NCBI RefSeq assembly: GCF_001428045.1
Contig: NZ_LMSD01000012.1
Location: forward strand, 434,101-498,100
Reading direction: 5' to 3'
DNA length: 64,000 bases
From: Paenibacillus sp. Soil750
Lineage (GTDB): Bacteria > Bacillota > Bacilli > Paenibacillales > NBRC-103111
This document shows, one piece after another, positions 24,345 through 64,000 of the stretch (position 1 is the first letter of the stretch; each line of letters begins with the position of its first letter). The position numbers were made by a program, and so were the translations under genes. Under the pieces are notes generated by a model that searched no databases, was not told where the DNA came from, and was given only the letters and a program-made list of their open reading frames with translations.

Positions 24345-27300
24345 TCATTCCTCTTGATAGATCTCGACAGCCCCCATTAATCCATAGGGCTGCAATCGAT
24401 ATGCCGGCGTATAATTTGCTTCATCCGGATGAAAAGACCACCAATCCGTCCAGCCCCGATCATTTGGTTTTTCATGAAACGGTCCTAATAAGTTGCGGGG
24501 ACTGCCGACTACCTCAACGTCGATACGGTTCTGTCCTTGCACAAGCCAATTGGTCAACTCAACAGTACCTGCAGCCCGCCATGGAATTGCTTGCCGATGC
24601 GTTTCATTGATGGTTATCTGCAGCGTAATCGCTTCATATTCCCCTAGCTTTAGCATAATTCGTTTGCCTTTACTAATGTCTGCCTCCAAATCGTACTGAT
24701 AGATCATGCTCCCGCAGTAGTGTGGATACCCCTGCCGAGCCCAATCCCCGATAACAAGACGCTCTGGTTCAAGAATAAGACTGCGATCGTGATCGAGGGC
24801 AAAATCACCAATCAAGAAGGCATTCTCCACTTCCATGTCATGCGTATAAGCGCAGCGAATCACTAGTTCATTCTCACCTTCACGCAAGGAGGGCAGCTTT
24901 AAAGATGACATTGATCGATCCAGAAACCAGCCGTCCGGCTTTCCCGGAACCGGATGTCCGTTCAATTCAACATGAAATCGCTCCAGCTGCTCGAAAACGA
25001 GTTGCGTATCTGTCTTCGGCGTGTTCTTCACATGAAAAGTAAAGCGGAATGCAACCGAAGTGCCGTCCGATGCATGTGGCTCGTGTATCCAGAAATGTCT
25101 TTGAAGCTTTCCGTTCGCATAAACGGGCCGCATGCCCAACTGCTGCCGAACCGCTTGCTGTGCTTGCCACACTTCCATTGTGTCCGACCAAGCTGCTTCT
25201 CCCAGCCGGTACTGGCAAGCGTCCATGACGAGGGCGTTCGGATGGGTTCGGGAAAAGCTCGTACTTCCCTCCATTTTCGTCAGAAGTTTCATCCCCTGCC
25301 CCAGTGGACTATGCTTCTTCGCATTTGGCAGAATTCGCTTGCTTCCTTTGGAGATCACATACAGCTTGGATTCCGCAGGACCGAAGCATGCCTCAAAATG
25401 CAGGTAACCGTTGTTAGCTTGCGCCTGCTTTGCAACGACCTCTCCGGATAGCAGATCCCATTCTTCGACCCCTCCGCTTCCTTCGATCCCAACCTCCACT
25501 TCGTATGAAGCTTCGCGATCATTGTTCACGACGAAGACGATCGTGCAATCCGGCAGCTCGCGCCGCATGTACAAGAGTCGTTCGGATTCCTCTCCACTTG
25601 ATGCCGTAAGACGCACAGTACGCGGGGCAATCCGCTCGATTTCAAGGATCAGTTCGTTCCAACTGTTCCTATGCTTAAATCCGTGATGGCCAGTTAGAAG
25701 GTGCAACTCATTAGATGGCTCCGCATCCAGCAGGGTCGGAACTTGGCCATAAGCCAGAACGATTCCCCCGGCATCCATAAACGTCATCAATAGTTTAAAG
25801 GTTGACGGAAGTAAATTGCTCAGCGAAGGCAAAATAACGACGGGATAGCTGGCTTGACCGATGCCAAATCGCTTCTCAACCACAAAGCCGTCTTCTTGCA
25901 TACACAGCTCATCACCTAAGTCAAAATCAACATGCTGGCTGAGCAAATGCTGAACAAAAGCATTAAACTCACGGTTATAGGCGTTAAGCTTTTCGATATT
26001 ACCTCCATCGTTACGCCATTCTTTCCCTTTCACATCGCAACCGAGCTGCGACCATACGGTTGTCGACGGATGAATGACAAGCACATCTCTTCGGACACGT
26101 CCCTCACATAGGACTGCACCCAACCGAGCAAAATACTGTTCCATCACATGATTGTGCGGCCACCAATTCGTATTGTAGTTAAAGGAAGGCGGATAATCCC
26201 GTTTTCTGCATCCTCGAAGTGAATATAGGGACACATGGTAGGTCATAAGATTGACGCCAAGGACATATTGCCAATCACCGACCCATTTACGGCCCTCGAA
26301 TGTGAATCCCCACCCCGTTACACCATAGGTTTCGGTGATTACCTTTTTCTTGCCATATTGATTGGCAATGCTCGAAACGTGCTTGACGCCCAAACTTTCG
26401 TCCGTTTGTTCGCACAGAATGTCGATGCCGGGGATGTCCATATAGCGATAATTCGGCATGAGCGCGCCTTGATGCCGGACTGCGCCAACCAGATCTGCCT
26501 CATCGCAGAAATGGCCTGTAAAAGCAAGACCGTTTTCCCTGCACCAATCACCGATTTGCTTCGTAAAGGACTGGCAGAACATCTCGGTTACCGTTTTCCA
26601 ATAATCGAAACGGACTTTAGCTGAAGGCGCCCCGTGATAGTAGAAATACGGCAGCGCATCCCAAATGGCGTAGCCATTCTTTTCCAAAAAAGCTTGCGGC
26701 AATTCATCGGACCATGTAATCCAAGTCATTTCCGGTGCTTTCAGCTCTTCTTTAAAACCGAGCAGACTGGGTTCATCCGTAAAAATCCCAGGAACTGTCC
26801 GACCGAACTCCCCTCCAACCGCAGCCTTATAGGTCTCATACGTCGTCTCGATGAAAATTCTGGTGGCTTCGGGATTCAAGTGATCCGGATACGTATCCCC
26901 ATGGCACCATTCATTGGGGGCAGCGACGATTCGGCGAAAGATCAAATAGACTTCATCCTCAGAGAGAGTCATCGAATCCAAACTTGATGGTGTTAACCTC
27001 TCGCAGGCTAACAGTTCGCTGCCGGACAGCTTCGCGCGATACATGGCTAGCACGGTGTCATCCTGTTGCGAGCTGTGAGAAACCGTCAGTGTTAAAGCTT
27101 TCGCCCGCACGGCATCGCCGCCAATGCGCGGCACAAGGCCTCCTCCCATCCCGGAAGAATAACGATCCTCGTCGTACAGCCATGCGTGAACCCCTTCCGC
27201 TTTCGCTTTCGCTACGGAATCCTTAACCCGCTCCATGAATTCCTCACCCATGTAAGGCGTCTCGAGACCTTCCCGCACATGCATCATAAATCCGCCCATG

Positions 27301-27434
27301 CCCTGTTCCTTAAAGCCCTCGATTTGTCGGTCCAGCTCCTCCTGCTCCATGGTGCCATTCCAAGACCAGAAGGGTACCGATCGGTGTTTCACAGGAGGAT
27401 TCTCAAATTTTTGCAACAATCCAGATTTATTCAA
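24345..27434 (-). CDS. GH106-like glycoside hydrolase (alpha-L-rhamnosidase family)
   Basis: A 1029-residue cytoplasmic protein without a signal peptide. The N-terminus has the GH106-type signature FENPPVKHRSVPFWSWNGTM and GGFMMHVREGLETPYMGEEF, marking the barrel edge. Later stretches are YDEDRYSSGMGGG, GIFTDEPSLLGFKEEL (candidate catalytic acid) and AFTGHFCDEADL. The C-terminal 200 residues form beta-galactosidase-like jelly rolls (QRHFWIHEPH, ELVIRCAYTHDMEVENAF). Characterised GH106 members remove terminal L-rhamnose, for example from rhamnogalacturonans; many distant members are untested. The ATG at 27434 follows AGAAGGGAG. It is third in an operon with the isomerase-like and dehydrogenase genes, 34 bases after the latter. 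Confidence 0.75.
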   Translation of the reverse strand: MNKSGLLQKFENPPVKHRSVPFWSWNGTMEQEELDRQIEGFKEQGMGGFMMHVREGLETPYMGEEFMERVKDSVAKAKAEGVHAWLYDEDRYSSGMGGGLVPRIGGDAVRAKALTLTVSHSSQQDDTVLAMYRAKLSGSELLACERLTPSSLDSMTLSEDEVYLIFRRIVAAPNEWCHGDTYPDHLNPEATRIFIETTYETYKAAVGGEFGRTVPGIFTDEPSLLGFKEELKAPEMTWITWSDELPQAFLEKNGYAIWDALPYFYYHGAPSAKVRFDYWKTVTEMFCQSFTKQIGDWCRENGLAFTGHFCDEADLVGAVRHQGALMPNYRYMDIPGIDILCEQTDESLGVKHVSSIANQYGKKKVITETYGVTGWGFTFEGRKWVGDWQYVLGVNLMTYHVSLYSLRGCRKRDYPPSFNYNTNWWPHNHVMEQYFARLGAVLCEGRVRRDVLVIHPSTTVWSQLGCDVKGKEWRNDGGNIEKLNAYNREFNAFVQHLLSQHVDFDLGDELCMQEDGFVVEKRFGIGQASYPVVILPSLSNLLPSTFKLLMTFMDAGGIVLAYGQVPTLLDAEPSNELHLLTGHHGFKHRNSWNELILEIERIAPRTVRLTASSGEESERLLYMRRELPDCTIVFVVNNDREASYEVEVGIEGSGGVEEWDLLSGEVVAKQAQANNGYLHFEACFGPAESKLYVISKGSKRILPNAKKHSPLGQGMKLLTKMEGSTSFSRTHPNALVMDACQYRLGEAAWSDTMEVWQAQQAVRQQLGMRPVYANGKLQRHFWIHEPHASDGTSVAFRFTFHVKNTPKTDTQLVFEQLERFHVELNGHPVPGKPDGWFLDRSMSSLKLPSLREGENELVIRCAYTHDMEVENAFLIGDFALDHDRSLILEPERLVIGDWARQGYPHYCGSMIYQYDLEADISKGKRIMLKLGEYEAITLQITINETHRQAIPWRAAGTVELTNWLVQGQNRIDVEVVGSPRNLLGPFHEKPNDRGWTDWWSFHPDEANYTPAYRLQPYGLMGAVEIYQEE

Positions 27435-49514: not shown

Positions 49515-52500
49515 TTAGTTCATAAAGTTCACGTAAATCAAAAATCTGTTCAGCACTACGGCAGCTTCCGCTCTTGTTGAATTGGAAGTTGGCGCGATCT
49601 GGTTGTCAGCTCTACCGTTTATTAGTCCAGCTTGCAAAGCTGCTGTAAGCGGCTGTTTCGCCCATGGACTAATTTGTGATTGGTCCAAGAACGACTTCAA
49701 CGTATTGTGACTTGCGTCGATTTGCACCTGCTTCCCTGCTAGTTTCATCGCTGACGCGATCATGACGGCCATCTGCTCTCTCGTTATCGGCTGATTCGGC
49801 ATGAACGTCTCAGGAGTGATGCCTTCAATCAACTTCGCCTGTACCGCCGCCTCAACAGCATCATAGAACCAATCGGTCGGCGCAACGTCGTTGAACGTAG
49901 GTTGAAGAACCGGCTTCGCTTGGTAGCCAAGTGCGCGAACGAGCATTGCAGCGAACTCCGCCCGCGTGACTGAAGCCTCTGGCATAAAGCGACTATCCGA
50001 TTGACCTTGCAAGATTAGCTTGGAGGCTAACTTGTCAACATCGGCTTTGCTCCAGTGACCAACGAGGTCATCGAATGTTTTATCACCCTGGACGACCGTG
50101 TAAATACTGGTGCCGTTTCGCTTCATGCGTACTTCCGTTTGACCATTTGACCCTGTGATGAACACCGCTGGGACATAAGTCAGTTTGCCTGTCTCCGAAT
50201 CATACCGTACGGCAGTTGCCCTATTCGCGTTCAGTTTCGATGTAATGAACAGGGTACGCTCCACATAGAGATTCCCGAATTGCGAGACTGGGACAATTGT
50301 ACCATTCTGCTCCAATGTCACCTTATAATCCACAATCTGACCTAGTACTGAAACGTTGTGATGACCTGAAGCGTTCTTCACGCGATCTTCCAGTGTAGAA
50401 TCCGCTTTTTCTATCGTGACGGACAAGGTACTTGTCGACGATTGCGACAGATTCTCCAAGGCGCCGCCAGGGATAAACAACGCCAATGGCAAGGAGATCT
50501 CACCTTGCAGCGATCGAATGATAACTACACCTTCAGGTGTTGTCCCCGATGCTTCTTGAAGGACGTTAGCCGGAAGCTTCACAACGAATGAACTGCTACT
50601 AATAGGCGGAGCAATGACGACTGCCGACGTTGTCGGAGACCAAGCTTGTTTAAGGGCATCGGCATCCACGAAAACCGTTGTAACTTCTCTTCCTTGGCTG
50701 TCTTTGCTTGTTTTTATCGCATCTTCCGATAGTAATATTTGAATGATGCTATCTTTCGATTCTTTGCTCGGAGGCGTCACAGGTTTCGATGGTTCGCCGG
50801 AGCCGGAGCCAGAGCCAGTACCAGTTCCAGAACCAGAGCCTGTTGACTGGTTCAATGAGACGAATCGCAGGGTCGTCACTTTCCCTGCAGGTGCACCAGT
50901 GGACTCATTGGCCGCCCAACGGACATAAAGTTCATGAAGCCCGTTAAAATTGATGAGCTTGAATATTTCAGCATCATATGGTGCATATTCGCTACCGTCC
51001 AAGCTGAATTCCAACCCAGCAGCCATCCCCGTCACCGTATTCGCAGCGTCATCCGCTGTGAGCTCAGGTGCCTTTGGCACCACATACACAGTGACCGCTG
51101 TTTGCAGCTCCGCGTGAGCCGTTGTTGCTGTAATGATCGCTTTGCCAGGCAGCTTCGCTGTTACCAAACCGCTGGAATCCACAGATGCGACCTTCTCATT
51201 GGAGGAAATCCAGCGAACAGTCGTATCATAAGCGTCCGAAGGTGTCACTTCCGCGTTAAGCGATATCATTGTCTGCTCAGCCTCTTCAGACGGCTGATCC
51301 AAAAACACCGCTTGCTCCACCGTACTCAGCTCCAATCCTTGCGGCTGAATTGGCTGACGATAGGTGTACATTTTCACATTATCGATCCATAACGGTGCAT
51401 CCACCGCCCCATAAGACGTATAGATCCGGATGTTATCGATTGAGGACGACGATTCGTAGAAGCTGAGTCCCTCCTTCTGAAGTATGCCGTTTAAATAGAC
51501 ATTGACCTTTTGGTTCGCAACATCAACTTCCAATCGGATGTGATGCCATACCCCTGTTGGAACGGATCCAAGCGTATCCACTTTGCCATCCTTGTACAAG
51601 TAGCGCAGTGTGCCACTGGTTAACAAGCGAACAACCGTTTTCTCACCTTGTCGCAGTTCATAGAACGGTGTTTTACCGCTGTTTTTTTCTTTCAAATCCC
51701 ATTCCGCCACGAAGGTGCCGGTTTGCTCCTCAAACGGTTGCTTGATCGAAGCACTAAACTTGTTGTCATTATCACTCAGCAGGATGCTCTTATTGTTCGG
51801 ATTCGGATCTTCCACAACCTGTACAGGTGCCGTTGTACTCTCAGCTACTTGCCAGGAGCCACTTCCTGAATTAAAAGTACTATATACCAGCGTCTGCTCC
51901 CCAAAACGATACACAGTGATATCATCAGTGTAAAGGATTGCGTCCTTTTGCGACGCACCTGTTTCTAAGCGGATGCCGTTAATTGCTGTAACCGAATTAG
52001 CAAAACTTGCGCCAACTGCCGCCAATTTACCGTCCACATAAACATCATATTTGTTGTGCGGAATATCGATCGTCAGCCGAATTTTCGTCCAAGTAGCTGC
52101 CGAAATGGGTTGAATATAATGCTCGGCACCTTGTCCGTCAAGCCAATAAAGCGCACCAGAGCGTGTCACTAAGCGAATGGCAGACGCATCTCCGCTGAGC
52201 AGCTTGAATTCCTCACCTTTCGGACCATACGGTTCCGCAAACATCCATTCCACCTCGGCCAGCTCAGAGACAGGTGGGAACGTTCGGGTAGCAACGGCCG
52301 AGGCTTGATCGCTCATATCGAGCAGTCTAAGAATGTTGCTAGATTCCTCTGGCAATCGCTCGAGAGTCACAATCGTCTGTTGCTCGCTACTAACACTCCA
52401 TCCACTTGGACCGCCACCGATGGCTTCCAGTCCATTGCCTTCGTTATCGAAGGCGGCGTACAGATTAGCCGAATGGTCTAGTTCACTGCTTACACCTCTC

Positions 52501-55500
52501 GGATTGATGATGGCTGGAATCGGCGGATGATCCGACGGTCTCGGCTTTGCAGGATCCGTATCGAACACCGCATGGAACGTACGTCCTACTGATCCGTTCA
52601 CACGGACTACCAATCGAATCGTCGGGTAAAGCTGGGTGACCATAATCTGCGGATCTGCCTGCAGCATGCCTGCAGCGGAGCGATCCAATTCAAGCTCAAT
52701 GGCACCTGAATTCTCCAACGTAGGATCAGAGACAGCGACCTCTAAACGATTATTCTCCTCCTTAATCATAACCGCAGCCTGTCTGGAGCTCGTCACCAAA
52801 TCCGCCTTCACCTTCTGGTCCTTCCAGAAATTCACCGCTGTGAGGCCAAGTCCTTGATGTCGAACCGCCTGAGCCTGATCATTATTCACGAGTACCTCAT
52901 AAGAGGGATGCTCTGCGAATTGCTTCACTTGATCAGCCGTTTTATTCGGCAAAATGGCATAGCTGTACGTTTGGCCCTGCGGGCTTTTCCCGTGGTCAAA
53001 CCACAAGCTCAGGTAGTTGCGAGATACCGGTGCGGATTGGGCCACACTCTGATTAACATCGCTCCACCGACCCGTCCGCTGTTCCCGGAGCCCATTCATC
53101 GTCGGTCGATCCGGGAAATAATACCCGATATCCGATTGCGCACCGTTTCCGCTGAAGTGCATCCACTGCACACCCGCCATTCTCTCCGTCCAGCCTAGTC
53201 CGGAGGACTTTGCTTGCCCATCGACAATCAACGGATTATCGCCATTTGCATTCAGCTTGCGCTGTTCCACGATCGTCTCGATCGTCCGGTTATCGCTGCT
53301 CGAAATGCCAGATCCCAGCGCAATAATCTCGTCACCGAACATAAACCATGACTTATTCGCTTGCAGCGTCGTACCAATCTGTTTCAACTGCATGCCGGAG
53401 CTGCCGTAGGATCCCATCTCGACGCCACCTGCCCATGCATTCGCTGGCTTGCCTTCACCGTCTCCGTTCTGGTAGTTATCAAACACACGCGGTCTTGTAT
53501 CTACCGTTGTGCCCGGCAAGCGATAACGGTTCGCTGTTGCCCAGTAATCTTCCATATATTGTGACTGATCGCCGTTATACAGGTAGGTCATGCCGTCGCC
53601 AGTATACCAACCTTCGCCATTTTCACCGTTGGTTAGCTCATAGGTCTGGATGCGCTTCGAGCTCTTACTGACGCCGAACGAATAGTCATCGCGAATTTGC
53701 AGACTTCTAGCCATACCCGCGAACTCATAATATCCTGCGGCTTCTCTATCTGGAACAATCGATGCGTCGCTTACCCAATGCTTCACAGAACCGATCAAAT
53801 TCATGGAGGATAAGTAATTGTAGTAGTTAAACTGAGTCTGATCCTGCGTAATCCACGATTTCAGCATGCTCTTCAGCTTCTGCGCATCTTCCGCTGGTGC
53901 ATTTAGTGCAAGCCTTGCGAGCGCTGACATGATACCTGCTGCGGTTTTCTGTGCATTATCTGATCCGCGAACAATGGATCTACCGTTCACCATATCCATC
54001 GTCATTCCTTTATAAATTAACGGGGCAACCCCATCATAGATCCATTTATAAAAGTTATTCACATTTGGATCGGTGATCGGCCAAGGACTGCCGTTCAGCA
54101 AGTATAGCAGCTGGCTGACTCCTTCCAGCATAACTGAGCCGTAACTCCCCGTGTAGGCGACGGATGTATGCATCACGAAAGATCCATCATCGTAAAAACC
54201 ATCTCCTGAAGTTACATAAGCAAACAACGGGGACATTTCGGATGCTACAGCGCGTATGCGTGACTCCGATTTCAACAAAATAGCATCCACGAGTTTATAC
54301 ATCAAAATATCGGAACGATTCGCCCCTGTATAATAAGAGCTCGTATCAAACAAATTCGATTGGATATCTGGAGTGTAATGATCAATTGCTGCGATATAGC
54401 GAGTGATTTGCTCCGGTGTCAACGCATCGTACATCATCACGATGATATCTGTTATTTTAGCCGGAATGCCTATCTCGAAATTCCACCAGTTGCCAAAAGC
54501 CGTGCCTGTCTCGTTATATTGCTTGACATACACCCACTCCAGTGCGGAAACAATATCGTTTTGCAATTGCTGATTGTGGTACAATGCCCCGCCTTTCGTT
54601 GAATAGGCATACGCCATCTCGCGAATTCGCGAAATGTTGTTATGGATGGCATCGGAATTTCCGCTGCTCACAACGGAATCCGGCCACAGCACTTGGCGGT
54701 CTGCCGCTTTCTGCAAAGTCGACCAACGGGTCTGCCCGTTGGTTGTTAACGTGGCTACCTTTGCCTGCACATCGGTGTCTGCGGTATCTAAGCTATCTCC
54801 ACCGTCAAGTCCGGCTTTGCGTTTCAATCTTAAGCGCTCGAATTCATCAGAAACTGTTGCTTTCTCAATGACTTTAATCATGGTGCTTGCCGTTTTACCT
54901 CCATCCACACTCGTCGCTGTAAGCGACGTCTCGCCAAGCTTAAGACCAGTCACTACACCTGCCGAATCGACAGAAGCAATCGTCGCATCGCCGATCGACC
55001 AGATGACCTGCTGATTGCTTGCTTGTGCCGGCTGAAAAGTCGGGACTAGCGTAATCGTGTCTCCTTTTGTTACTGTAGCCTGACTTGGCAAAGAAATCGA
55101 AGCCACGCCTGGCTGCAGCACGGTCACCATTGTCGTCGCGTTATGGTTGCCATCTTCACTTCGTACAGTAATCACGGCTTGCCCCGCCGATTGTGCAGTG
55201 ACTAGCCCTTGCGCGTCGACTGTGGCGATCGCCGTGTTGTCACTTGTCCATGTGACCTTAGGATTCGTAGCGTTTGCAGGCATGATAACAGGTGTAAGCT
55301 GCGCAGTCCCACCTGCTGCTATAGTCTGCTCAGCCGGCAAAGCAATGCCTGTAACCGGCACATTATTGGAAACGGTTATGTTGGATGAGGCTACTTTTCC
55401 GCCATCCAATGCCGTTGCCGTAACCCGTGCCGTTCCAACACCCACACCTGTAACCACGCCATACGTATCGACGGTCACTGTTGCTGGGTTTTCCGAGCTC

Positions 55501-56297
55501 CAAACCACACGTTGATCCGCAGCATCTTCAGGCATTATCTGAGCGGTAAGCACTTGCTGCTTACCCACACCAATCGTAGCCGCGTCAGGCATTACGGAAA
55601 CGCTTTCAACTTGCGCGTACGTGTAAATCCGCACATCGTCCAAATAGGAGCTTCCCGGCAGCGCCGTTCCTGTCTGTGTAAATTTTAGCGTGTTAATTGT
55701 ATCCCAAGTAGCCCCTAATGTGACACCGGTTACAACTTGAACATCATTCAACAGCACATCCGCCTTTTTGCCGGTCTGATCGATGATCGCTTTGACGCGA
55801 TACCACGTATTCGGTGCATATGTCCCTAAAGACGTATTCAAGATGGACATTTGCCCTGTTTCTGTGAGTGTGAGAAAGTTCTTCCATACCCCGCTTGTAC
55901 TTTTCACATCCAGCAATCGGATATGCCCGGTGTCTTGTGCTCGTACCGATGCTTCCAACACTACCTTACCCGCAATGTTCAAACCGAATTTACCCGTGTA
56001 CAGTTGCGTGCCAGCAGTACCTGACACCAGCTTCAAACTGAGATCACTCCGACCGTAAACGGCTTCCCCAACCGTATAATCCGTTCCAGCTTTGGCATTA
56101 TACAACCCCCAATTCCCTCCTATTTCTGCAGCTGGCCCTGAGGTTGAAGGCGCCGTAGGGTACGTATTAAAGCTTGCCCCCACATAAGTGGTTACTGCAG
56201 CCTGTGCCGTAATTGGTCCTGTCATACTCAGTGGTATGAACAAATTGCTTACCATGGCGGCAATGAGGATACAAGCACTCCTCCTTTTGTTAAACAT
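49515..56297 (-). CDS. SLH-anchored polysaccharide lyase family 8 (hyaluronate/chondroitin/xanthan lyase-like)
   Basis: A 2260-residue cell-surface enzyme. A signal peptide (to about 34) and a LamG-like domain (about 38-228) are followed by three Big2 Ig domains (232-478). The PL8 toroid has the aromatic patch GNWWNFEIGIP and catalytic N660 (TGANRSD), H710 and Y719 (MHTSVAYTGSY) and R773/R777 (GRSIVR). Their spacing (N to H 50, H to Y 9, H to R 63) equals that of pneumococcal hyaluronate lyase. The lyase beta-sandwiches run to about 1270. Two LamG-like domains, a fourth Big2 domain, a Gly/Ser linker, a beta module and three SLH motifs (about 2080-2260) follow. It cleaves uronate-containing polymers by beta-elimination at the wall surface. 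ATG 56297 is preferred to 56303, which abuts GGGGGAG. GH88 in the same module fits its products. Confidence 0.92.
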   Translation of the reverse strand: MFNKRRSACILIAAMVSNLFIPLSMTGPITAQAAVTTYVGASFNTYPTAPSTSGPAAEIGGNWGLYNAKAGTDYTVGEAVYGRSDLSLKLVSGTAGTQLYTGKFGLNIAGKVVLEASVRAQDTGHIRLLDVKSTSGVWKNFLTLTETGQMSILNTSLGTYAPNTWYRVKAIIDQTGKKADVLLNDVQVVTGVTLGATWDTINTLKFTQTGTALPGSSYLDDVRIYTYAQVESVSVMPDAATIGVGKQQVLTAQIMPEDAADQRVVWSSENPATVTVDTYGVVTGVGVGTARVTATALDGGKVASSNITVSNNVPVTGIALPAEQTIAAGGTAQLTPVIMPANATNPKVTWTSDNTAIATVDAQGLVTAQSAGQAVITVRSEDGNHNATTMVTVLQPGVASISLPSQATVTKGDTITLVPTFQPAQASNQQVIWSIGDATIASVDSAGVVTGLKLGETSLTATSVDGGKTASTMIKVIEKATVSDEFERLRLKRKAGLDGGDSLDTADTDVQAKVATLTTNGQTRWSTLQKAADRQVLWPDSVVSSGNSDAIHNNISRIREMAYAYSTKGGALYHNQQLQNDIVSALEWVYVKQYNETGTAFGNWWNFEIGIPAKITDIIVMMYDALTPEQITRYIAAIDHYTPDIQSNLFDTSSYYTGANRSDILMYKLVDAILLKSESRIRAVASEMSPLFAYVTSGDGFYDDGSFVMHTSVAYTGSYGSVMLEGVSQLLYLLNGSPWPITDPNVNNFYKWIYDGVAPLIYKGMTMDMVNGRSIVRGSDNAQKTAAGIMSALARLALNAPAEDAQKLKSMLKSWITQDQTQFNYYNYLSSMNLIGSVKHWVSDASIVPDREAAGYYEFAGMARSLQIRDDYSFGVSKSSKRIQTYELTNGENGEGWYTGDGMTYLYNGDQSQYMEDYWATANRYRLPGTTVDTRPRVFDNYQNGDGEGKPANAWAGGVEMGSYGSSGMQLKQIGTTLQANKSWFMFGDEIIALGSGISSSDNRTIETIVEQRKLNANGDNPLIVDGQAKSSGLGWTERMAGVQWMHFSGNGAQSDIGYYFPDRPTMNGLREQRTGRWSDVNQSVAQSAPVSRNYLSLWFDHGKSPQGQTYSYAILPNKTADQVKQFAEHPSYEVLVNNDQAQAVRHQGLGLTAVNFWKDQKVKADLVTSSRQAAVMIKEENNRLEVAVSDPTLENSGAIELELDRSAAGMLQADPQIMVTQLYPTIRLVVRVNGSVGRTFHAVFDTDPAKPRPSDHPPIPAIINPRGVSSELDHSANLYAAFDNEGNGLEAIGGGPSGWSVSSEQQTIVTLERLPEESSNILRLLDMSDQASAVATRTFPPVSELAEVEWMFAEPYGPKGEEFKLLSGDASAIRLVTRSGALYWLDGQGAEHYIQPISAATWTKIRLTIDIPHNKYDVYVDGKLAAVGASFANSVTAINGIRLETGASQKDAILYTDDITVYRFGEQTLVYSTFNSGSGSWQVAESTTAPVQVVEDPNPNNKSILLSDNDNKFSASIKQPFEEQTGTFVAEWDLKEKNSGKTPFYELRQGEKTVVRLLTSGTLRYLYKDGKVDTLGSVPTGVWHHIRLEVDVANQKVNVYLNGILQKEGLSFYESSSSIDNIRIYTSYGAVDAPLWIDNVKMYTYRQPIQPQGLELSTVEQAVFLDQPSEEAEQTMISLNAEVTPSDAYDTTVRWISSNEKVASVDSSGLVTAKLPGKAIITATTAHAELQTAVTVYVVPKAPELTADDAANTVTGMAAGLEFSLDGSEYAPYDAEIFKLINFNGLHELYVRWAANESTGAPAGKVTTLRFVSLNQSTGSGSGTGTGSGSGSGEPSKPVTPPSKESKDSIIQILLSEDAIKTSKDSQGREVTTVFVDADALKQAWSPTTSAVVIAPPISSSSFVVKLPANVLQEASGTTPEGVVIIRSLQGEISLPLALFIPGGALENLSQSSTSTLSVTIEKADSTLEDRVKNASGHHNVSVLGQIVDYKVTLEQNGTIVPVSQFGNLYVERTLFITSKLNANRATAVRYDSETGKLTYVPAVFITGSNGQTEVRMKRNGTSIYTVVQGDKTFDDLVGHWSKADVDKLASKLILQGQSDSRFMPEASVTRAEFAAMLVRALGYQAKPVLQPTFNDVAPTDWFYDAVEAAVQAKLIEGITPETFMPNQPITREQMAVMIASAMKLAGKQVQIDASHNTLKSFLDQSQISPWAKQPLTAALQAGLINGRADNQIAPTSNSTRAEAAVVLNRFLIYVNFMN
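50796..50843 (-). repeat. Gly/Ser linker-coding simple repeat
   Basis: Degenerate GGCTCC/GGAACC-like hexamers encode the flexible STGSGSGTGTGSGSGSG linker before the surface-anchoring part of the PL8 lyase. Such tracts can slip during replication. Confidence 0.7.
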
Positions 56298-56334
56298 GGA
56301 CATCTCCCCCTCTTGAATGGATACCTACATGCTC

Positions 56335-56584: not shown

Positions 56585-59500
56585 TCACTGCAAAATCAAC
56601 TGCGCGACCGCCGCCAAATCCTCAATATCAACGATATGATCGCCATTAACGTCCATTTGCTTGTATTGCTCCCAATCAAGATCAGCCGATGTTTTACCGT
56701 ATGCAGCAGCAACTTGGGCCAAATCTCCCACGGAGAATTTGCCATCGGTATTGACGTCACCAGGCGTTGCGGTATGCACGCTGGCTAAGAAAGCATTCAA
56801 CGCAGACTGAAGCGCATTCACAGCTTGTGTGACTTGCTCAGTTGATGCACTTGCATCCACAGCTACAGCCTTAGCTCCATCGATCGCTGTCTGGAGCACT
56901 GCTTTGGAACCATTCGGATATTGTCCCGCAATGCTTCCCTCAAGTGCCACATCATGTTTGCTTTGTGCTTGTGAAATCAGATCGTTCAATACGGCTTTAT
57001 TCACTAATCCCGTAATTTGAACAGCCAAGCTAGCTTGATCCAATGTCTTTTCTTCACCTGTGCCGTTCGCAAGCACAGCACTTGAAAGCAGGACCGTCGC
57101 ATTTGCAGTACTCGTCAATGATTTGGCCTTCCAATTCAACTTAAGCATCGCGCCATTCACATCGGTGACGCCGATATTGGCAATAATCAACCTTACTTTG
57201 CCTGGTGTCACGGCTTTATCCACCACGGTAACCCCCGCATGCAACTCCTCCACAGAGACAAATTCGAGTTGCGTCGGATCATACGTCACGGTCAGATCCT
57301 CCGCGTAAACAGCTTCCGTAACCGAGCCAAGACTTAATGTGACGTTAAATGGCTGCCCGCTGGAAACGATAGCTGAACCTGTCCATGTGAAAGACGGCTC
57401 ATCCACAGCAGGACCTATCGAGAAGTAATCAACATCTACAGGGATGGACGTACCATCTGTTGCTGACATCGCATAGAAGCCCACTTTGACATTCGATAAA
57501 TTGACTGTCATCGGATCAGCTGCTTGCTGCCAAGCGGAACCATTCCAGAAGGATGTCGTATAGACATTGCCTACCTTCGCTATCATCAGATACACCGAAT
57601 CTGTCCCCGGATGCTTCGCAACATTGGTTGCTTTGGTGTATACGGCATTTTTTTCAAATGCGCTTTCTAGATTTTTCCCAGTAGCACCCGTGGTATCCCA
57701 CACATGACCTATACGCACATAATTATCTTCGTCCTGCCAAACGAGCAAACCACCTTGCTCATAATTCTTGTTCACCGAACCTGTGATTTTGGTGGTTATC
57801 ACGAAATCTCCGGCAGGTGCATTTTGCAGAAATACGTTTTTACTTGCGTTGGAGTTTCCGAACATATCTCCAGCCAAAGATTGCAGGCGGATACTCCCTG
57901 GATTGGCAGTTAGACTCCATTTAGTGTTATCTGGACGGAAAATCGTCCAACCTGGCGCTAGCGTTGTGGAATCAAATGAATCTGTCGTAAAACCGTTAGG
58001 AATGGGCGCATGCACGGTAGATAAGATTTGCTGATGTGCAGCTACTAAGCTAACTAGTGCCCCTTGAATTTGACCTACCGTTGCGTTCACATCTTGATTA
58101 ACCGCCTTAGCCGCATTTAATGTTGTCGTAAACTGATCAACAGCAGCTTGTGGATATGCGCCAGGTTGTGATCCGATGTGAATGGCGCCAAGGAAGCTTT
58201 CTTCAAGGGCAAGTTGCGCAAGCAAATCTGCTTTATTCGCTGTGCCGATCAACTCTCGGTGGGCTTTAGCGATCCGGTCAAAATCAAGTTTTTCCACTTT
58301 ACGATCATACGTAAGCAGTCCGTTAATTTCATACTCCACATCTGTAATTTGCGTATAGATCGCTGCGTTTAAGCCATTTGCCTTCTGTTGCTTAAGAGAA
58401 TCGATAAAACCAATATATTTATCTGTTATTTCCTGTTTGCTGCTCATTAATTGATAAGAGAAGGTAAGCGGCGTCCATTCATGTCCTGTCACATGCAAAC
58501 CAAGTCCGCCATACTCACCAATGACAGATGCACGGTTCGCTGATAGCGCAGGTGAAGCAGGCGCTGGATAACTGTGCGCGTCGTTCAGATCGCCTACACT
58601 TGTATCCCACCAACCGCTGCTGCCGTTTATGAGGCGTGTGGAATCCCAGCTTTTCACTAGATTCACGGCATCTTTGGACAGTTGGCCGCCTTGATCGAAT
58701 TCCCCCCATCCCTCGTTAAACACCGTCCATGTCACAATCGAAGGCGTGCTTTGAAGCTGGTCGACCATTTCCTTATATTCTTTCAACCACTGTGTTTTCG
58801 CCGCTTGAGAAATATCACTTCCTTTATTCCCCTGCCGATCCTCTAAACTAGGCATATCCTGCCAGACCAGCAAGCCCATTTTATCTGCCCAGTAATACCA
58901 GCGTGCCGGCTCAATTTTGATATGCTTGCGCACGGTGTTCATGCCGATCCGTTTAATCGTTGCCAGGTCAAATTGCAGCGCTTCTTCGGTTGGTGCGGTG
59001 TAAATCCCATCTGGGTAGTACCCTTGATCTAGCGGCCCCATCATAAAGACGGATTTGCCATTTAACAGTGTACGCATGACACCATCAACCAGACCTGTCT
59101 TGATTTCTCTCATCCCAAAATAACTATCTACTTGGTCAACGGATTGCGTCCCGTTGTTTAATGACACCTTGAGATCATAGAGGAACGGATCATCAGGTGA
59201 CCATAATCTTGGATTTGGAACCGGAATCGCAATGTTCGTTCCTGGAGTTCCTGTCGCTGTGCCAACAACTTGCCCATTGATACTAGCAGTCGCTTTGACA
59301 GTTTCACCTTGCACGCCAGAAGCAGTCACTTTCAACTTTAGCACCTGGTTGGTTATATCCGGTACCATGTCTAGCTTGTCAATATGAGCTGGGGCAACTG
59401 GTTCCATCCAAACGGTTTGCCATATACCTGAACTTGATGTGTACCAAATGCCACCAAGCTTCTTCACAGTTTGCTTCCCTACCGCTTGATCTTCTCCTGA

Positions 59501-60814
59501 GTCCGTGTTGTCTAACACTTTCACGATCAATTCATTAGGTCCCGTCTTCAATTGATCTGTGATATCCAGGCTAAATGCCGTGAATCCACCCTTGTGACTG
59601 CCTACAAGCTGTCCATTGACATAGACAGTAGCCAAATAATCGACAGCCCCGAAGTTCAACTTCACCCGTTGACCGCTCCAGCTATCGGGAATCGTAAAGG
59701 ATCGCTTATACCACATCAAGCTTTCCGTACGATGAATGCCGGATAGAATCGACTCTGCCGCAAATGGGACGAGAATCTTCTCTTTTAAAGTTTGACCGGT
59801 TGGAAGCGCATCGCTAGCTTTGGCAGCCTGGAATTCCCATTCACCGTTGAGATTCATCCATTGCGCACGAGCCAGCTGTGGCCTTGGATACTCTGGCAAC
59901 ACGTTAGCTGGATCCAGTTGTTCCGCCCATGGCGTCATAATTTGATACGTCGAGTCATTTTTCAAAAATTTGGAGAAAGCGCCAATGGCACTTCCGTCCC
60001 CTTGTTGAAGACCGCCATTCCCGTCATAACTAATCCCCACCTGTGAAACATCCTTGGAGTAAATCGGATTCTCAAATGTGAGCACGAGAACACTGTTATT
60101 ACCTGATTGAAGTGCCGCGCTAGCAATTGGCCAGTTGGTTCCAGCGACATCCACCTTCAGATGCGTACCAAACCCGCCTGTAGGCGGAGCGGATAAGGCG
60201 TTATCAAAGTTGATCTCTGCCTTCGTTCCATCCTCGGAGATGCGGCCTGCGGATTTATAACCAGCTGGTGTGAACAACGCATCCGTAGGAATCGCCTGTT
60301 TAGCAAGCGAAGGACTGGACCATCTCACATGCAGATTAGATCCGCCTGTTGCTTCGAAATATTCGAGCTTGAAATCCACTTTCTGGCCTGCGACCAAAGC
60401 GATCGGTATGCCCGTTTGCTCTTTATCCCAATCATTGACCCAATGATCAAGCACAAGTTGGTTATTCACCCACAGGCGGAATCCATTGTCGCCAATAATG
60501 GAGAATGTATAATTTTCAGAATAGGCAGGAACGATCGATCCCGTCCATCTTACATTCACATTATCACTTTGCCCTGTCATCAACTTCAACGCTGTTTCCA
60601 AGGAGCTAAAATCCAAATTTGCGTCGACCGTAGTCGCTTTTAAAGTTCCAAAATTAAAGCTTGGTGAGCCTGAGCTCGTATAATAGTCACCTTTCAAGCC
60701 ATGTGTTTCAGCTTCTGCAGCCTGAACGTGATGTGTAATCAATAGGGAAGGAAGAGCTAAACTCACAACCATGACAAGCATTAATAGCATTTTCTGCACG
60801 TCTTTGAACTTCAT
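56585..60814 (-). CDS. Secreted GH2 glycosidase with PA14, FIVAR, cohesin and dockerin domains
   Basis: A 1409-residue secreted enzyme: signal peptide (to about 32), PA14 domain (about 38-185), a short beta module, GH2 sugar-binding, Ig and TIM-barrel domains (about 310-860). The acid/base is E701 in TVFNEGWGEF and the nucleophile E767 in SVIGEYGGLG. Then come FIVAR (about 862-935), a DUF1349-like concanavalin domain (about 945-1130), a cohesin-like domain (about 1138-1268; AEDLTVTYDPTQLEFVSVEE), FIVAR (about 1272-1345) and a C-terminal dockerin with two calcium loops, DVNTDGKFSVGD and DVNGDHIVDIED. GH2 covers beta-galactosidase, -mannosidase, -glucuronidase and arabinosidase; the type is open. 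ATG 60814 is preferred to 60856 because GAGAGG and the signal peptide follow this start. It is a monocistronic unit. Confidence 0.9.
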   Translation of the reverse strand: MKFKDVQKMLLMLVMVVSLALPSLLITHHVQAAEAETHGLKGDYYTSSGSPSFNFGTLKATTVDANLDFSSLETALKLMTGQSDNVNVRWTGSIVPAYSENYTFSIIGDNGFRLWVNNQLVLDHWVNDWDKEQTGIPIALVAGQKVDFKLEYFEATGGSNLHVRWSSPSLAKQAIPTDALFTPAGYKSAGRISEDGTKAEINFDNALSAPPTGGFGTHLKVDVAGTNWPIASAALQSGNNSVLVLTFENPIYSKDVSQVGISYDGNGGLQQGDGSAIGAFSKFLKNDSTYQIMTPWAEQLDPANVLPEYPRPQLARAQWMNLNGEWEFQAAKASDALPTGQTLKEKILVPFAAESILSGIHRTESLMWYKRSFTIPDSWSGQRVKLNFGAVDYLATVYVNGQLVGSHKGGFTAFSLDITDQLKTGPNELIVKVLDNTDSGEDQAVGKQTVKKLGGIWYTSSSGIWQTVWMEPVAPAHIDKLDMVPDITNQVLKLKVTASGVQGETVKATASINGQVVGTATGTPGTNIAIPVPNPRLWSPDDPFLYDLKVSLNNGTQSVDQVDSYFGMREIKTGLVDGVMRTLLNGKSVFMMGPLDQGYYPDGIYTAPTEEALQFDLATIKRIGMNTVRKHIKIEPARWYYWADKMGLLVWQDMPSLEDRQGNKGSDISQAAKTQWLKEYKEMVDQLQSTPSIVTWTVFNEGWGEFDQGGQLSKDAVNLVKSWDSTRLINGSSGWWDTSVGDLNDAHSYPAPASPALSANRASVIGEYGGLGLHVTGHEWTPLTFSYQLMSSKQEITDKYIGFIDSLKQQKANGLNAAIYTQITDVEYEINGLLTYDRKVEKLDFDRIAKAHRELIGTANKADLLAQLALEESFLGAIHIGSQPGAYPQAAVDQFTTTLNAAKAVNQDVNATVGQIQGALVSLVAAHQQILSTVHAPIPNGFTTDSFDSTTLAPGWTIFRPDNTKWSLTANPGSIRLQSLAGDMFGNSNASKNVFLQNAPAGDFVITTKITGSVNKNYEQGGLLVWQDEDNYVRIGHVWDTTGATGKNLESAFEKNAVYTKATNVAKHPGTDSVYLMIAKVGNVYTTSFWNGSAWQQAADPMTVNLSNVKVGFYAMSATDGTSIPVDVDYFSIGPAVDEPSFTWTGSAIVSSGQPFNVTLSLGSVTEAVYAEDLTVTYDPTQLEFVSVEELHAGVTVVDKAVTPGKVRLIIANIGVTDVNGAMLKLNWKAKSLTSTANATVLLSSAVLANGTGEEKTLDQASLAVQITGLVNKAVLNDLISQAQSKHDVALEGSIAGQYPNGSKAVLQTAIDGAKAVAVDASASTEQVTQAVNALQSALNAFLASVHTATPGDVNTDGKFSVGDLAQVAAAYGKTSADLDWEQYKQMDVNGDHIVDIEDLAAVAQLILQ

Positions 60815-60956
60815 GCTTGAACCAACCTCTCTTATTTTAGATGCATAACGTATCAAATTTGGGGAGGCCTTACCTAGCTATGTATAGATTCATGTTGATA
60901 TATTCAGTCTCCTCGTGCTGCCTCCTTCCTTTATTTCTCAACATTGGAACTTCTTT

Positions 60957-60962
60957 ATTATA
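60957..60962 (-). promoter_or_regulatory. -10 element of the GH2 gene
   Basis: A perfect TATAAT on the minus strand lies about 145 bases before the start, with no convincing -35 at 17 bases. Like the PL8 promoter it looks activator-dependent. The leader between it and the gene holds purine-rich GGAAGGAGG and GAGGAGA runs but no gene. Confidence 0.35.
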
Positions 60963-61007
60963 GAAAACGCCGTTCAACATGTATTTACATTAATAGGATT
61001 TTTTATG

Positions 61008-61057
61008 TAAAAATCCCACATATAACGATACAAGTCGTATCGTAAATATGCGGGATT
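61008..61057 (-). terminator. Terminator of the GH127 gene
   Basis: AATCCCGCATATTTACGATACG pairs with its near-complement ending GTGGGATT, with a central ACGATAC/GTATCGT stem. TTTTACATAAA follows on the minus strand. It lies 16 bases past the GH127 stop and isolates the GH2 gene. Confidence 0.75.
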
Positions 61058-61072
61058 CCAAAGCTCTATGCT

Positions 61073-64000
61073 TTACTGCGAAATCATTTGTGCCATTGCT
61101 GCAAGATCAACTAAGTCAATTTGACCATCATGATTAAAGTCTAGATTCTTCAATTGCTCCCACGATGCACTATTTGACAATACACCATAGAATGCTGCTA
61201 AAATGTCTAAATCATCGGTGGAATATTTGCCATCGTTGTTGAGATCACCTAGTAAAGGTATAGGCACAATTGTATCTGTATCGTCTGTTGGATCCACGTT
61301 GACTATTGGAACCGTAAGTTGCATCGTGTGTTGGGCGGTATCTAGCGTTGTTTCTACCCCATGTTGATCAGCGATGATAACATTTGACAAGGAAATGACA
61401 GTGTTCGCTGTGTTGGGAATAGACTTGGCTTTCCATTTCAGCTTAAGTAATGAACCATCAAGGTTTAATTTACCTACTTTCGCCATTAGCAAACGCACTT
61501 GACCTGTCAACTTCGATTCACCAACTAATACAAACCCTTCTGTCAAAGCCTCAGCACCCATGTATTCCACTTGGCTAGGATTATATGACACAGTTACATC
61601 CTGTGCGTACACACTTTGTGTAACGTTCGCTATACCCATCTCTAGATCGAAGGTCTGATTCGCTTGAACGGCATCCGGTCCTGACAAGCTAGCGACAGCT
61701 GGCAACGTAGGCTCAGGTGCTTTCACTTCCAGCGGTCGAACAACCACATAGTCCAGTTCATAAAAGCCTTCGCTTTTCATAAACTTGATCGTGTTCGTCC
61801 CCTCCTGGAGATCGACTGTTAGAGGAATTGCCATGAAGCGTCCCCAGTTTTGTGTACCCTGAAGCTTTACCAATTGCTCCTCGCCGTTAACGAGAACTTT
61901 TCCCGTAGCCGCTGTATAATCGCCGCCATTAGCAAACCAAATATCCATGTTGTATGTGCCAGCAGCAGGAACTTGTACCGCGTTGAAAAGAACATAGCTG
62001 TCTGGATAATCAATCTCTCCGACATAACTGCCACCCGAAGCACGATTATTATTCGTATTCACTTTCGCATGGCCAATTTGGGCTTGTTCAGCTTCATATT
62101 TCATGGTCATGGCTTCTTCTGCTTGTTCCGTCACCTCTGGGAAATAGGTGACTCTCAAATTCTCAGCGCCATAGGGCACTAAAGTAATGTGCTCAGTTGG
62201 TTCTGTCGATAAGATTGGTCCTACAGGCGGTTCAGTCGCTTCGACGTTGTTGGCCGATTTCCCCCATGTTGGAATTTTCTTCGCCTTCGCAATCAATTTA
62301 ATTGGGCTTGTTGCTTGGATGAAAGGATTCTCTGGCATCTCACCTTTCACGACTTCAATCGATTGCTCTGGATGTTCACGGTCAATCACTAATCCATAGT
62401 TCCACGGACTGCTCGATGATACACGATATTGGTTGTAGCCAAGTGCTCCTGCATCAAAGCCTGGAATGGCGCCAATCGGATTAGATTGAACCTGCCAATT
62501 TTCTTGGATTTGCAGGGAGAACACAAGCGGTCCGCGTTCAATTCCAACCGAATTATTCACCCAAGTTGTTGTTTTCAATTTCATTGGCACCGTTAGCACA
62601 ACACGGTCGCCTGTCGTCCAAGTTCTGTCGATCGTCATATATTCACCAGCAATAACGCCTTGCTGAGCTTGACCATTGACCGTTACGGTCGGTTGATTCG
62701 ACCATGCAGGAATCCTTAACTTAAGCGGGAAGCTTACGGCTTCCGACGTTGTCACATCGAATCCGATTTGCTCTTCGAATGGATAATTCGTCGTTTCATC
62801 AATCGTGACGTTTGCATTTTTGATTTTGGTGGAAACGCGGTTGGGTCCATACGCAATAATACCGAGACCACCATCCGGTGTGGCGCCCCACATATTTTTC
62901 ACAAAATACGGCCAGCCCATATGCATATTAAATCGGCAACATGGAAAACCCGATGTCGGAGACGGCATCGTCCCATTCTCATAATTCTGTTTATAACCAT
63001 GATCCGCAATGTTGCTCTCGACCTGATTCGGTAAGGAATAATACTGATGGTTCTTCAACTCTTTATCCATAGCGCCAGGCAAGGAATTGAAGGCAATCTT
63101 CTCAAGTGCATCGCCTATATGCGGATCACCGAGAATCATCGCTGCTTCTTCGTTACTTTGCATCCGTTCTGTAATGGCACAGAGCTCTACACCTTGTGTA
63201 GCTCCAATGCCTGCCAACATTTCGGTGCCGGATTGCATCCCCGTGATCTGTTCATGCTTTGCCAAATTGCTTACGCCTTGTTGGAAAGCATCACGATCTT
63301 GTTCATCATGCGATCTTTGATAGTAGATGGTTGGCATCTTGATTGCTTCATTCACATTAACGGCATGGGTCGGTTGGAAATCATTACCGAAGTTTTGAAA
63401 TTCATCTTTGGCATAAATATCGGAAATCGGATAACCTTGATCAGCTAATGTATCTGCTAATTGGAGCAGAAAAGCATCTTCCGTTCGATTATACAACCAG
63501 AGCACGGTGTCAATATTATCGCCTACGCGAATTTTGCCCCAATCTCTTAACGGTCGATCCGGCAATTGAGCCACTTGATAATGAAAATATTTCGTCATGA
63601 ACGGAAGGACACGCCCATCATTGGTCGCTTCATAATAATCTTTCATAACATAAAGTGCGACCATGCGGGGCCACCAATCATCACTGCTCGCAGGCCCGAA
63701 AGAACCATCCGCATGCTGACTGGCCAGAATCGCTTCAATCCATTTCTGAGATTTCGCGATGAGGTCCTTGTCTTTTAACGTGTAGGCCAAAGGAACAAGC
63801 CCTTTCAAGTAGTAAACCGGACGCTCCCAATCGGAATCTGGCGCTGTGCCGCCAAGCCAAGCTGCGTTGGTGCCGAGCTCACTATACAAATCCTCTGAAT
63901 AGCCCGTAGAGTTGTCACGCTGAAGTTCAAGTTGCTTGAGCAGCCAGCCTTTCGCCTCTATGGAACCCAATGGAAGCGGAGTAAATGGCGTTTGCACTAG
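61073..64000 (-). CDS. GH127 (DUF1680) glycosidase with CBM, cohesin and dockerin domains, 5' end cut by the window
   Basis: At least 975 residues are visible and the frame runs off the right edge; the signal peptide is expected beyond. In visible numbering the GH127 domain spans 1-620. The putative zinc ligands of the family are present: E271 and C273 (VELCA) and C353-C354 (GFPCCRFNMH), with E259 at the candidate acid/base site. A CBM35/CBM6-like domain follows (about 632-755; KYEAEQAQIG), then a cohesin-like domain (about 770-897; YAQDVTVSYNPSQVEYMG) and a dockerin (917-974) with DLNNDGKYSTDD and DFNHDGQIDLVD. Characterised GH127 enzymes are beta-L-arabinofuranosidases; some act on aceric acid in rhamnogalacturonan II. 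The cohesin and dockerin resemble those of the GH2 enzyme next door. Confidence 0.88.
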   Translation of the reverse strand, partial: LVQTPFTPLPLGSIEAKGWLLKQLELQRDNSTGYSEDLYSELGTNAAWLGGTAPDSDWERPVYYLKGLVPLAYTLKDKDLIAKSQKWIEAILASQHADGSFGPASSDDWWPRMVALYVMKDYYEATNDGRVLPFMTKYFHYQVAQLPDRPLRDWGKIRVGDNIDTVLWLYNRTEDAFLLQLADTLADQGYPISDIYAKDEFQNFGNDFQPTHAVNVNEAIKMPTIYYQRSHDEQDRDAFQQGVSNLAKHEQITGMQSGTEMLAGIGATQGVELCAITERMQSNEEAAMILGDPHIGDALEKIAFNSLPGAMDKELKNHQYYSLPNQVESNIADHGYKQNYENGTMPSPTSGFPCCRFNMHMGWPYFVKNMWGATPDGGLGIIAYGPNRVSTKIKNANVTIDETTNYPFEEQIGFDVTTSEAVSFPLKLRIPAWSNQPTVTVNGQAQQGVIAGEYMTIDRTWTTGDRVVLTVPMKLKTTTWVNNSVGIERGPLVFSLQIQENWQVQSNPIGAIPGFDAGALGYNQYRVSSSSPWNYGLVIDREHPEQSIEVVKGEMPENPFIQATSPIKLIAKAKKIPTWGKSANNVEATEPPVGPILSTEPTEHITLVPYGAENLRVTYFPEVTEQAEEAMTMKYEAEQAQIGHAKVNTNNNRASGGSYVGEIDYPDSYVLFNAVQVPAAGTYNMDIWFANGGDYTAATGKVLVNGEEQLVKLQGTQNWGRFMAIPLTVDLQEGTNTIKFMKSEGFYELDYVVVRPLEVKAPEPTLPAVASLSGPDAVQANQTFDLEMGIANVTQSVYAQDVTVSYNPSQVEYMGAEALTEGFVLVGESKLTGQVRLLMAKVGKLNLDGSLLKLKWKAKSIPNTANTVISLSNVIIADQHGVETTLDTAQHTMQLTVPIVNVDPTDDTDTIVPIPLLGDLNNDGKYSTDDLDILAAFYGVLSNSASWEQLKNLDFNHDGQIDLVDLAAMAQMISQ

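Follow-up and report, generated by a model that had tools for sequence, protein, structure and literature searches.

Cellulosomes require a large scaffold protein, which fixes the number of enzymes assembled, and cohesins and dockerins outside the cellulosome have been surveyed before; original structural work on the X82 modules of Clostridium perfringens reportedly established that they bind dockerins. Here we describe two neighbouring genes for secreted glycosidases, of families GH2 and GH127, in a 64,000-nucleotide stretch of Paenibacillus sp. Soil750 (contig NZ_LMSD01000012.1, positions 434,101 to 498,100; the window in what follows), whose products each carry a cohesin and a dockerin. The reading we favour, with a probability of roughly 0.6, is an enzyme assembly that is tethered to the wall and has no long scaffoldin, in which enzyme dockerins would be anchored by cohesins of one class (CohA) and cohesins of a second class (CohB) would chain further enzymes through their dockerins. 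As both enzymes carry plug and socket, and small wall proteins encoded in the same genome carry the matching socket, the bacterium probably displays enzyme chains on its surface with no need for the long scaffold of a cellulosome.

Two published systems come closest. For C. perfringens ATCC 13124, the available part of the report lists five cohesin proteins, all with a glycoside hydrolase (GH) domain, and five dockerin-bearing GHs, one GH31 enzyme having both modules, and states that the X82 cohesins bind dockerins (PMC12997984). Our enzymes share with that species the single cohesins on glycosidases and, in GH2, the FIVAR-dockerin arrangement, and the nearest solved structures of both modules come from it, but two modules in one chain, an exception there as far as the available text goes, are the rule here. 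SLH (surface-layer homology) repeats receive no mention in the portion of PMC12997984 at hand, and no search for anchors was made in C. perfringens. For P. guangzhouensis, the accessible passage describes 28 proteins with one dockerin-cohesin pair ("monovalent adaptors"), many with an N-terminal GH, and five SLH-anchoring scaffoldins; its authors suggest a cell surface rich in enzymes, organised differently from conventional cellulosomes, and consider that the modules could dock, that dockerins were missed or that foreign dockerins are caught (PMC11557425). Compared with the text of that paper and not its sequences, the layout here is alike, with one cohesin and one dockerin on a GH and separate cohesin-SLH proteins. 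The account covers one species in one paragraph; our survey follows the pattern across the genus and into further genera, and adds the division into two cohesin classes, the pairing of anchor with enzyme genes, double cassettes that lack a catalytic domain, and dockerin numbers that match. A two-cohesin protein is reported for P. guangzhouensis, and none was found in the Soil750 genome. In the literature searched, which covered few subscription journals, we found no other paper on the cohesin-dockerin and anchor layout in Paenibacillus, and none that describes two cohesin classes, paired genes or a spread through the family. The first-pass annotation had called the system little-described, which is fair with one published description found: the layout had already been sketched for P. 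guangzhouensis, and the classes, pairing and spread appear new. In Acetivibrio-type cellulosomes, too, GHs bear type I dockerins and SLH repeats anchor proteins with cohesins, and the nearest sequence to CohA is an adaptor cohesin (3l8q, E 2.5e-7 over a match of 50 residues); they differ in that here no protein found in nine genomes has more than two cohesins and most enzymes bring their own.

The two enzymes and their relevant parts are listed by window position.

56585..60856, minus strand: GH2 enzyme, 1423 aa from a TTG start; PA14, GH2, GH43_C2-type fold, CohB, FIVAR and dockerin
57026..57364, minus strand: enzyme-class (CohB) cohesin in the GH2 protein (PF00963, 43.3 bits when the genome was searched, 37.0 by hmmscan)
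56792..56995, minus strand: FIVAR of the GH2 enzyme, between cohesin and dockerin (PF07554, 31.4 bits; coordinates from residues 1288-1355)
56591..56764, minus strand: C-terminal type I dockerin of the GH2 enzyme (PF00404, 25.9 bits; 22.5 by hmmscan, slightly below cut-off)
61073..64000, minus strand: GH127 enzyme, the C-terminal 975 of 1385 aa in the window; GH127, CBM35, CohB and dockerin
61730..62101, minus strand: CBM35 of the GH127 enzyme (PF16990, 44.3 bits; coordinates from residues 634-757)
61337..61690, minus strand: enzyme-class (CohB) cohesin in the GH127 protein
61082..61252, minus strand: C-terminal type I dockerin of the GH127 enzyme (PF00404, 27.2 bits; 22.8 by hmmscan, slightly below cut-off)

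By eye, a better start for the GH2 gene is an ATG about 42 bp downstream of the TTG, ahead of a signal-peptide-like stretch; the GH127 gene extends past the window edge, back to C12:499330. That a cohesin is followed by a C-terminal type I dockerin in both enzymes, as first noted from the letters, was confirmed. On direct reading, both dockerins have D or N at positions 1, 3 and 5 and D at 12 in two loops, and the loop columns are 87-100% one residue across 116 local dockerins (gapped rows excluded). The suggested kinship to the X82 and FIVAR-dockerin modules of C. perfringens also held, the fold of the window cohesins being closest to the X82 modules of NagJ and NanJ. FIVAR stands right before the dockerin in GH2 and is absent from GH127.

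We then surveyed nine genomes, that of Soil750 and eight of the genus, across the regions of every Pfam cohesin or dockerin match, with local profiles built from the Soil750 domains; as the regions were picked by Pfam matches, the counts are lower bounds. After the removal of four copies cut by a region edge, 173 of 177 proteins remained, and four Pfam matches, in frames with stops or too short, were assigned to no protein. The 173 proteins sort into 101 with cohesin and dockerin, 45 with cohesin and SLH, 14 with dockerin only, 12 with cohesin only and one with dockerin and SLH, and the cohesins fall into two main classes, that of the enzymes (CohB, X82-like) and that of the anchors (CohA). 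The cohesin precedes the dockerin in 101/101 proteins that have both, and the dockerin lies within 7 residues of the end in 100 of them; the spacing between the modules forms three groups, 6-29 residues (26 proteins), 81-102 (69, one FIVAR length) and 152-176 (6, two FIVAR lengths).

A search of the Soil750 genome for further cohesin or dockerin proteins and for a scaffoldin, proposed with the first description, gave 22 cohesins and 14 dockerins by Pfam and no classical scaffoldin. The inventory rests on six-frame matches and local profiles; hmmscan shows Cohesin (E 0.001) in 13 of the 22 proteins from the six-frame search; among those it misses are three enzymes on C23 with six-frame scores of 58-61 bits. 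The claim that no scaffoldin is visible stands in so far as a multi-cohesin primary scaffoldin is concerned: no protein with more than two cohesins was found in the nine genomes (154 of 158 cohesin proteins have one and 4 have two), and all cohesin proteins of Soil750 have a single one. It is incomplete with respect to a cohesin partner on the wall, since a cohesin-SLH protein is encoded some 15 kb outside the window, at C12:513328-514392, and many genomes of the genus have anchors of this kind. Local profiles together with Pfam genome matches give 10 in Soil750 and 45 in the nine genomes; hmmscan finds SLH in 10/10 of the Soil750 anchors and Cohesin at E 0.001 in 7/10 (four above the cut-off), and one anchor (C12:1224618) is without a Pfam cohesin and was assigned by the local CohA profile. 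The idea of an assembly for one glycan found no support: by Pfam names, the cassette occurs in Soil750 on GH2, GH10, GH27, GH30+GH43, GH43, GH95, GH101 and GH127 proteins.

In the assembly that we propose, secreted glycosidases end in a CohB-(FIVAR)-dockerin cassette, and neighbouring genes encode small proteins of one CohA cohesin and SLH repeats, the latter holding them in the cell wall. The dockerin of an enzyme would first plug into such an anchor, a step that gene pairing, co-occurrence and a conserved CohA face support well but do not prove. As to pairing, 26 of 32 CohA-SLH genes in the nine genomes have a same-strand dockerin gene within 500 bp, for an expectation of 0.08 from random gene order; among all cohesin-SLH genes the count is 33/45. 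Across 72 named loci, 26 of 28 CohA-SLH genes are within 500 bp of a dockerin gene, which is not an independent test because these loci were fetched around cohesin-dockerin genes. The pattern recurs in other genera, in seven genomes that were picked for many matches and scored by position alone (SLH not checked): 31 of 40 strong CohA adjoin a dockerin, counting the 40 of 61 profile matches kept at 69 bits or more, with 21 at 48 bits or less dropped as likely CohB. Two of these genomes are nearly regular, with CohB just 5' of 18/18 dockerins and 14/14 CohA just 3' of a dockerin in G046, and 17/17 and 11/12 in G103.

As to co-occurrence, CohA-bearing genomes also have a dockerin in 59 of 59 cases among 104 genomes of the family, of which 74 have a dockerin; nine of the 59 have a best E worse than 1e-12 and are possibly CohB cross-matches, and the safer statement is that a dockerin is present in 50/50 family genomes with strong CohA. 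Four genomes of the genus lack CohA by profile, three of them without a Pfam dockerin and one (G027) with a single dockerin in mid-protein; in G005, one of those three, local profiles pick up a dockerin and a CohA, both weak, in genes next to each other. As to the surface, the presumed dockerin-facing strand face of CohA is conserved (p 0.014), the face being strands 8-3-6-5, which we take to be the contact side from type I complexes and not from computed contacts.

In a second step, the CohB of a docked enzyme would take the dockerin of another, so that the enzyme would be cargo and scaffold at once and short chains or branches could form; dockerin-only enzymes would end the chains, and proteins of just cohesin, dockerin and Fn3 or FIVAR would add branches. 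We infer this chaining from the kinship of CohB to binding X82 modules, from its company of dockerins, from the shortage of anchors in some of the systems rich in dockerins and from the adaptors. In 30 genomes of the genus, non-CohA cohesins track dockerins closely (rho 0.97, slope 0.90) and CohA more loosely (rho 0.72), and dockerin-rich genomes may have few anchors, with dockerins to anchors at 80:10, 48:2 and 101:10; Pfam dockerins number at least 101 in one genome of the genus, the genus and family counts being minimum values in the case of the largest genomes, whose candidates were scored in part. By Pfam, proteins with two cohesins and two dockerins and without a catalytic family occur in P. 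chondroitinus (L054), P. validus (L090) and G008, with fn3 between the cassettes in L054 and L090; in that of P. silvestris (L063), a single cohesin and fn3 are combined with two dockerins. In P. chondroitinus, P. validus and P. silvestris these genes lie 41-51 bp from a CohA-SLH gene. Such adaptors are hard to explain without cohesin-dockerin contact between chains.

Several results weigh against this picture. The same face test gave no extra conservation for CohB (p 0.42), which makes CohB less secure than CohA as a receptor, a result that would also fit diversified partner choice. Dockerins and next-door CohA do not co-vary (r 0.11, p 0.34), which fits loose partner choice and gives no positive support. 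Just 35 of 116 dockerin genes in the nine genomes have an anchor neighbour, from high proportions in G016 (7/9), G024 (10/16) and Soil750 (9/16) to low ones in G008 (4/49) and G025 (3/20). In the same fetched regions, cohesin-less SLH proteins lie near a dockerin gene in 3/8 cases; this control is small, from regions chosen for cohesins or dockerins, so that the contrast with 26/32 rests on few cases, and one of the three resembles, by position, the SLH half of a broken anchor gene. Among the other genera pairing is broken in G063 (8 dockerins and one strong CohA, not adjacent) and in G069 (10 dockerins and no strong CohA). Finally, the GH127 dockerin of the window is, by its residues, atypical at the presumed first-half recognition positions: positions 10/11 are T/D and not the usual I or V/G, and D at position 11 is found in 3 of 104 rows and is shared by the window GH127 and its two closest orthologs. 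It may therefore choose a different partner or use its second half alone.

Single enzymes might also dock on CohA-SLH anchors with no chains formed, their own CohB being a spacer or serving another ligand. The conserved face of CohA and not CohB agrees with this, as do genomes with about one anchor per enzyme gene, such as G016, where seven of nine cohesin-dockerin genes have an anchor gene within 500 bp. We nevertheless hold it to be unlikely: of 115 dockerin proteins that lack SLH, 101 retain a cohesin (98 of them CohB by profile), 70 of 85 dockerins in the seven genomes of other genera have CohB immediately 5' of them, the Asp at a strand-3 position is retained in 102/104 CohB, the nearest relatives with a solved structure are the X82 cohesins of C. 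perfringens, for which dockerin binding is reported, and dockerins far outnumber anchors in some genomes.

Less probable still is a closed form, in which CohB would hold the dockerin of its own chain and keep it masked, an anchor or a substrate being needed to open the clasp. Both halves do stand in one chain and in one order in those 101 of 115 proteins, and within genomes the distances of CohB and its own dockerin correlate (r 0.60); however, this mostly vanishes after allowing for the FIVAR between them (partial r 0.07-0.27, five genomes), as expected from a cassette copied whole, and the spacing of the modules ranges from 6 to 176 residues. Closure within one molecule, which the first-pass annotation had considered, drew no support from a one-chain model of the GH127 cohesin, linker and dockerin, weak evidence as it had no positive control: two well-folded modules were not docked (predicted template modelling score, pTM, 0.63; predicted local distance difference test, pLDDT, 52-65 in the linker). 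Strict partner pairs were likewise unsupported by co-variation, either of CohB with its own dockerin, where FIVAR explains most, or of dockerins with neighbouring CohA. That the cohesins scavenge dockerin enzymes released by other bacteria, as suggested for P. guangzhouensis in PMC11557425, is very improbable here, because the genomes hold about as many dockerins as enzyme cohesins, often paired with neighbouring anchor genes, and no outside source is needed.

Returning to the wall-tethered chains, we extend them tentatively to a second route to a cell-bound multi-enzyme complex, which might be widespread in Paenibacillaceae: most enzymes would be cargo and scaffold, operon-like pairs of an enzyme (CohB-FIVAR-dockerin) with a monovalent wall anchor (CohA-SLH) would seed chains that extend outward from the wall by CohB-dockerin links, the enzyme to anchor ratio would set their length and dockerin-only enzymes would cap them. 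If enzyme-borne sockets are real, assembly would scale with the number of enzymes and small anchors would suffice; soil-type bacteria, outside the anaerobic cellulosome makers, would have a cell-bound digestion machine, and plug-socket pairs would become available to enzyme design. Because the genes come in pairs, purified modules would allow a direct test.

The two enzymes would be chain members within a 29-kb cluster, C12:490685-519891, that runs beyond the window edge; all listed open reading frames of at least 200 aa between C12:519891 and the window are on the minus strand. In order of transcription it begins as follows.

C12:514411-519891, minus strand: GH43 enzyme with dockerin, first in transcription order
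C12:513328-514392, minus strand: CohA-SLH anchor, 18 bp after the GH43-dockerin gene
C12:510070-512874, minus strand: GH43 enzyme with CohB and dockerin, after the anchor

A sugar-binding protein, an ATP-binding cassette (ABC) ATPase, two permeases, a histidine kinase and a response regulator come next, and then a second sugar-binding protein, a thioredoxin-like protein, the GH127-CohB-dockerin and the GH2-CohB-FIVAR-dockerin. The cluster thus holds four dockerins and four cohesins, three CohB on enzymes and one CohA on the anchor. GH43, GH127 and the monosaccharide-type ABC importer suggest, from family names, that an arabinose-containing plant glycan is the target. Adjoining the GH2 gene, at window 49515-56303, is a polysaccharide lyase family 8 enzyme with three SLH repeats of its own, so the stretch has a directly anchored enzyme as well as the cohesin-dockerin ones. 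Farther off are a DUF4962/heparinase II-III-like enzyme with Fn3 repeats (window 15909-21797) and a GH106 rhamnosidase-like enzyme (window 24345-27434), and several AraC-type regulators and a two-component pair are also found in the window.

Some arrangements depart from the common cassette. In Soil750, a 1715-aa CohB protein without a Pfam catalytic family at E 0.001 (L023:3640-8787; C12:649640-654787) has a terminal dockerin with a degenerate first calcium loop and a CohA-SLH gene 75 bp away. A GH53 enzyme with CohB and SLH (L021:7075-11696, C43) is followed 23 bp on by a small dockerin-only protein, and CohB-SLH genes adjoin a dockerin-only gene in G008 and G026 as well. Two-cohesin SLH genes, L154 (G008 C1:5055112-5060090) and L182 (G024 C1:5819394-5824243), overlap a dockerin-only gene by 4 bp; their predicted products are small bivalent scaffoldins that form a type of their own, as local profiles place them with neither CohA nor CohB. 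Probably broken genes are L160 (G016 C1:2030372-2032139), which looks like an anchor gene whose cohesin and SLH portions have come apart, and L203 (G026 C1:2846635-2847438), an adaptor frame that opens within a cohesin. A subtilase-family peptidase (L022:6476-10780; C9:56476-60780) combines a stretch that weakly resembles a cohesin with a dockerin that has 37 further residues behind it, an arrangement that differs from the glycosidase cassettes.
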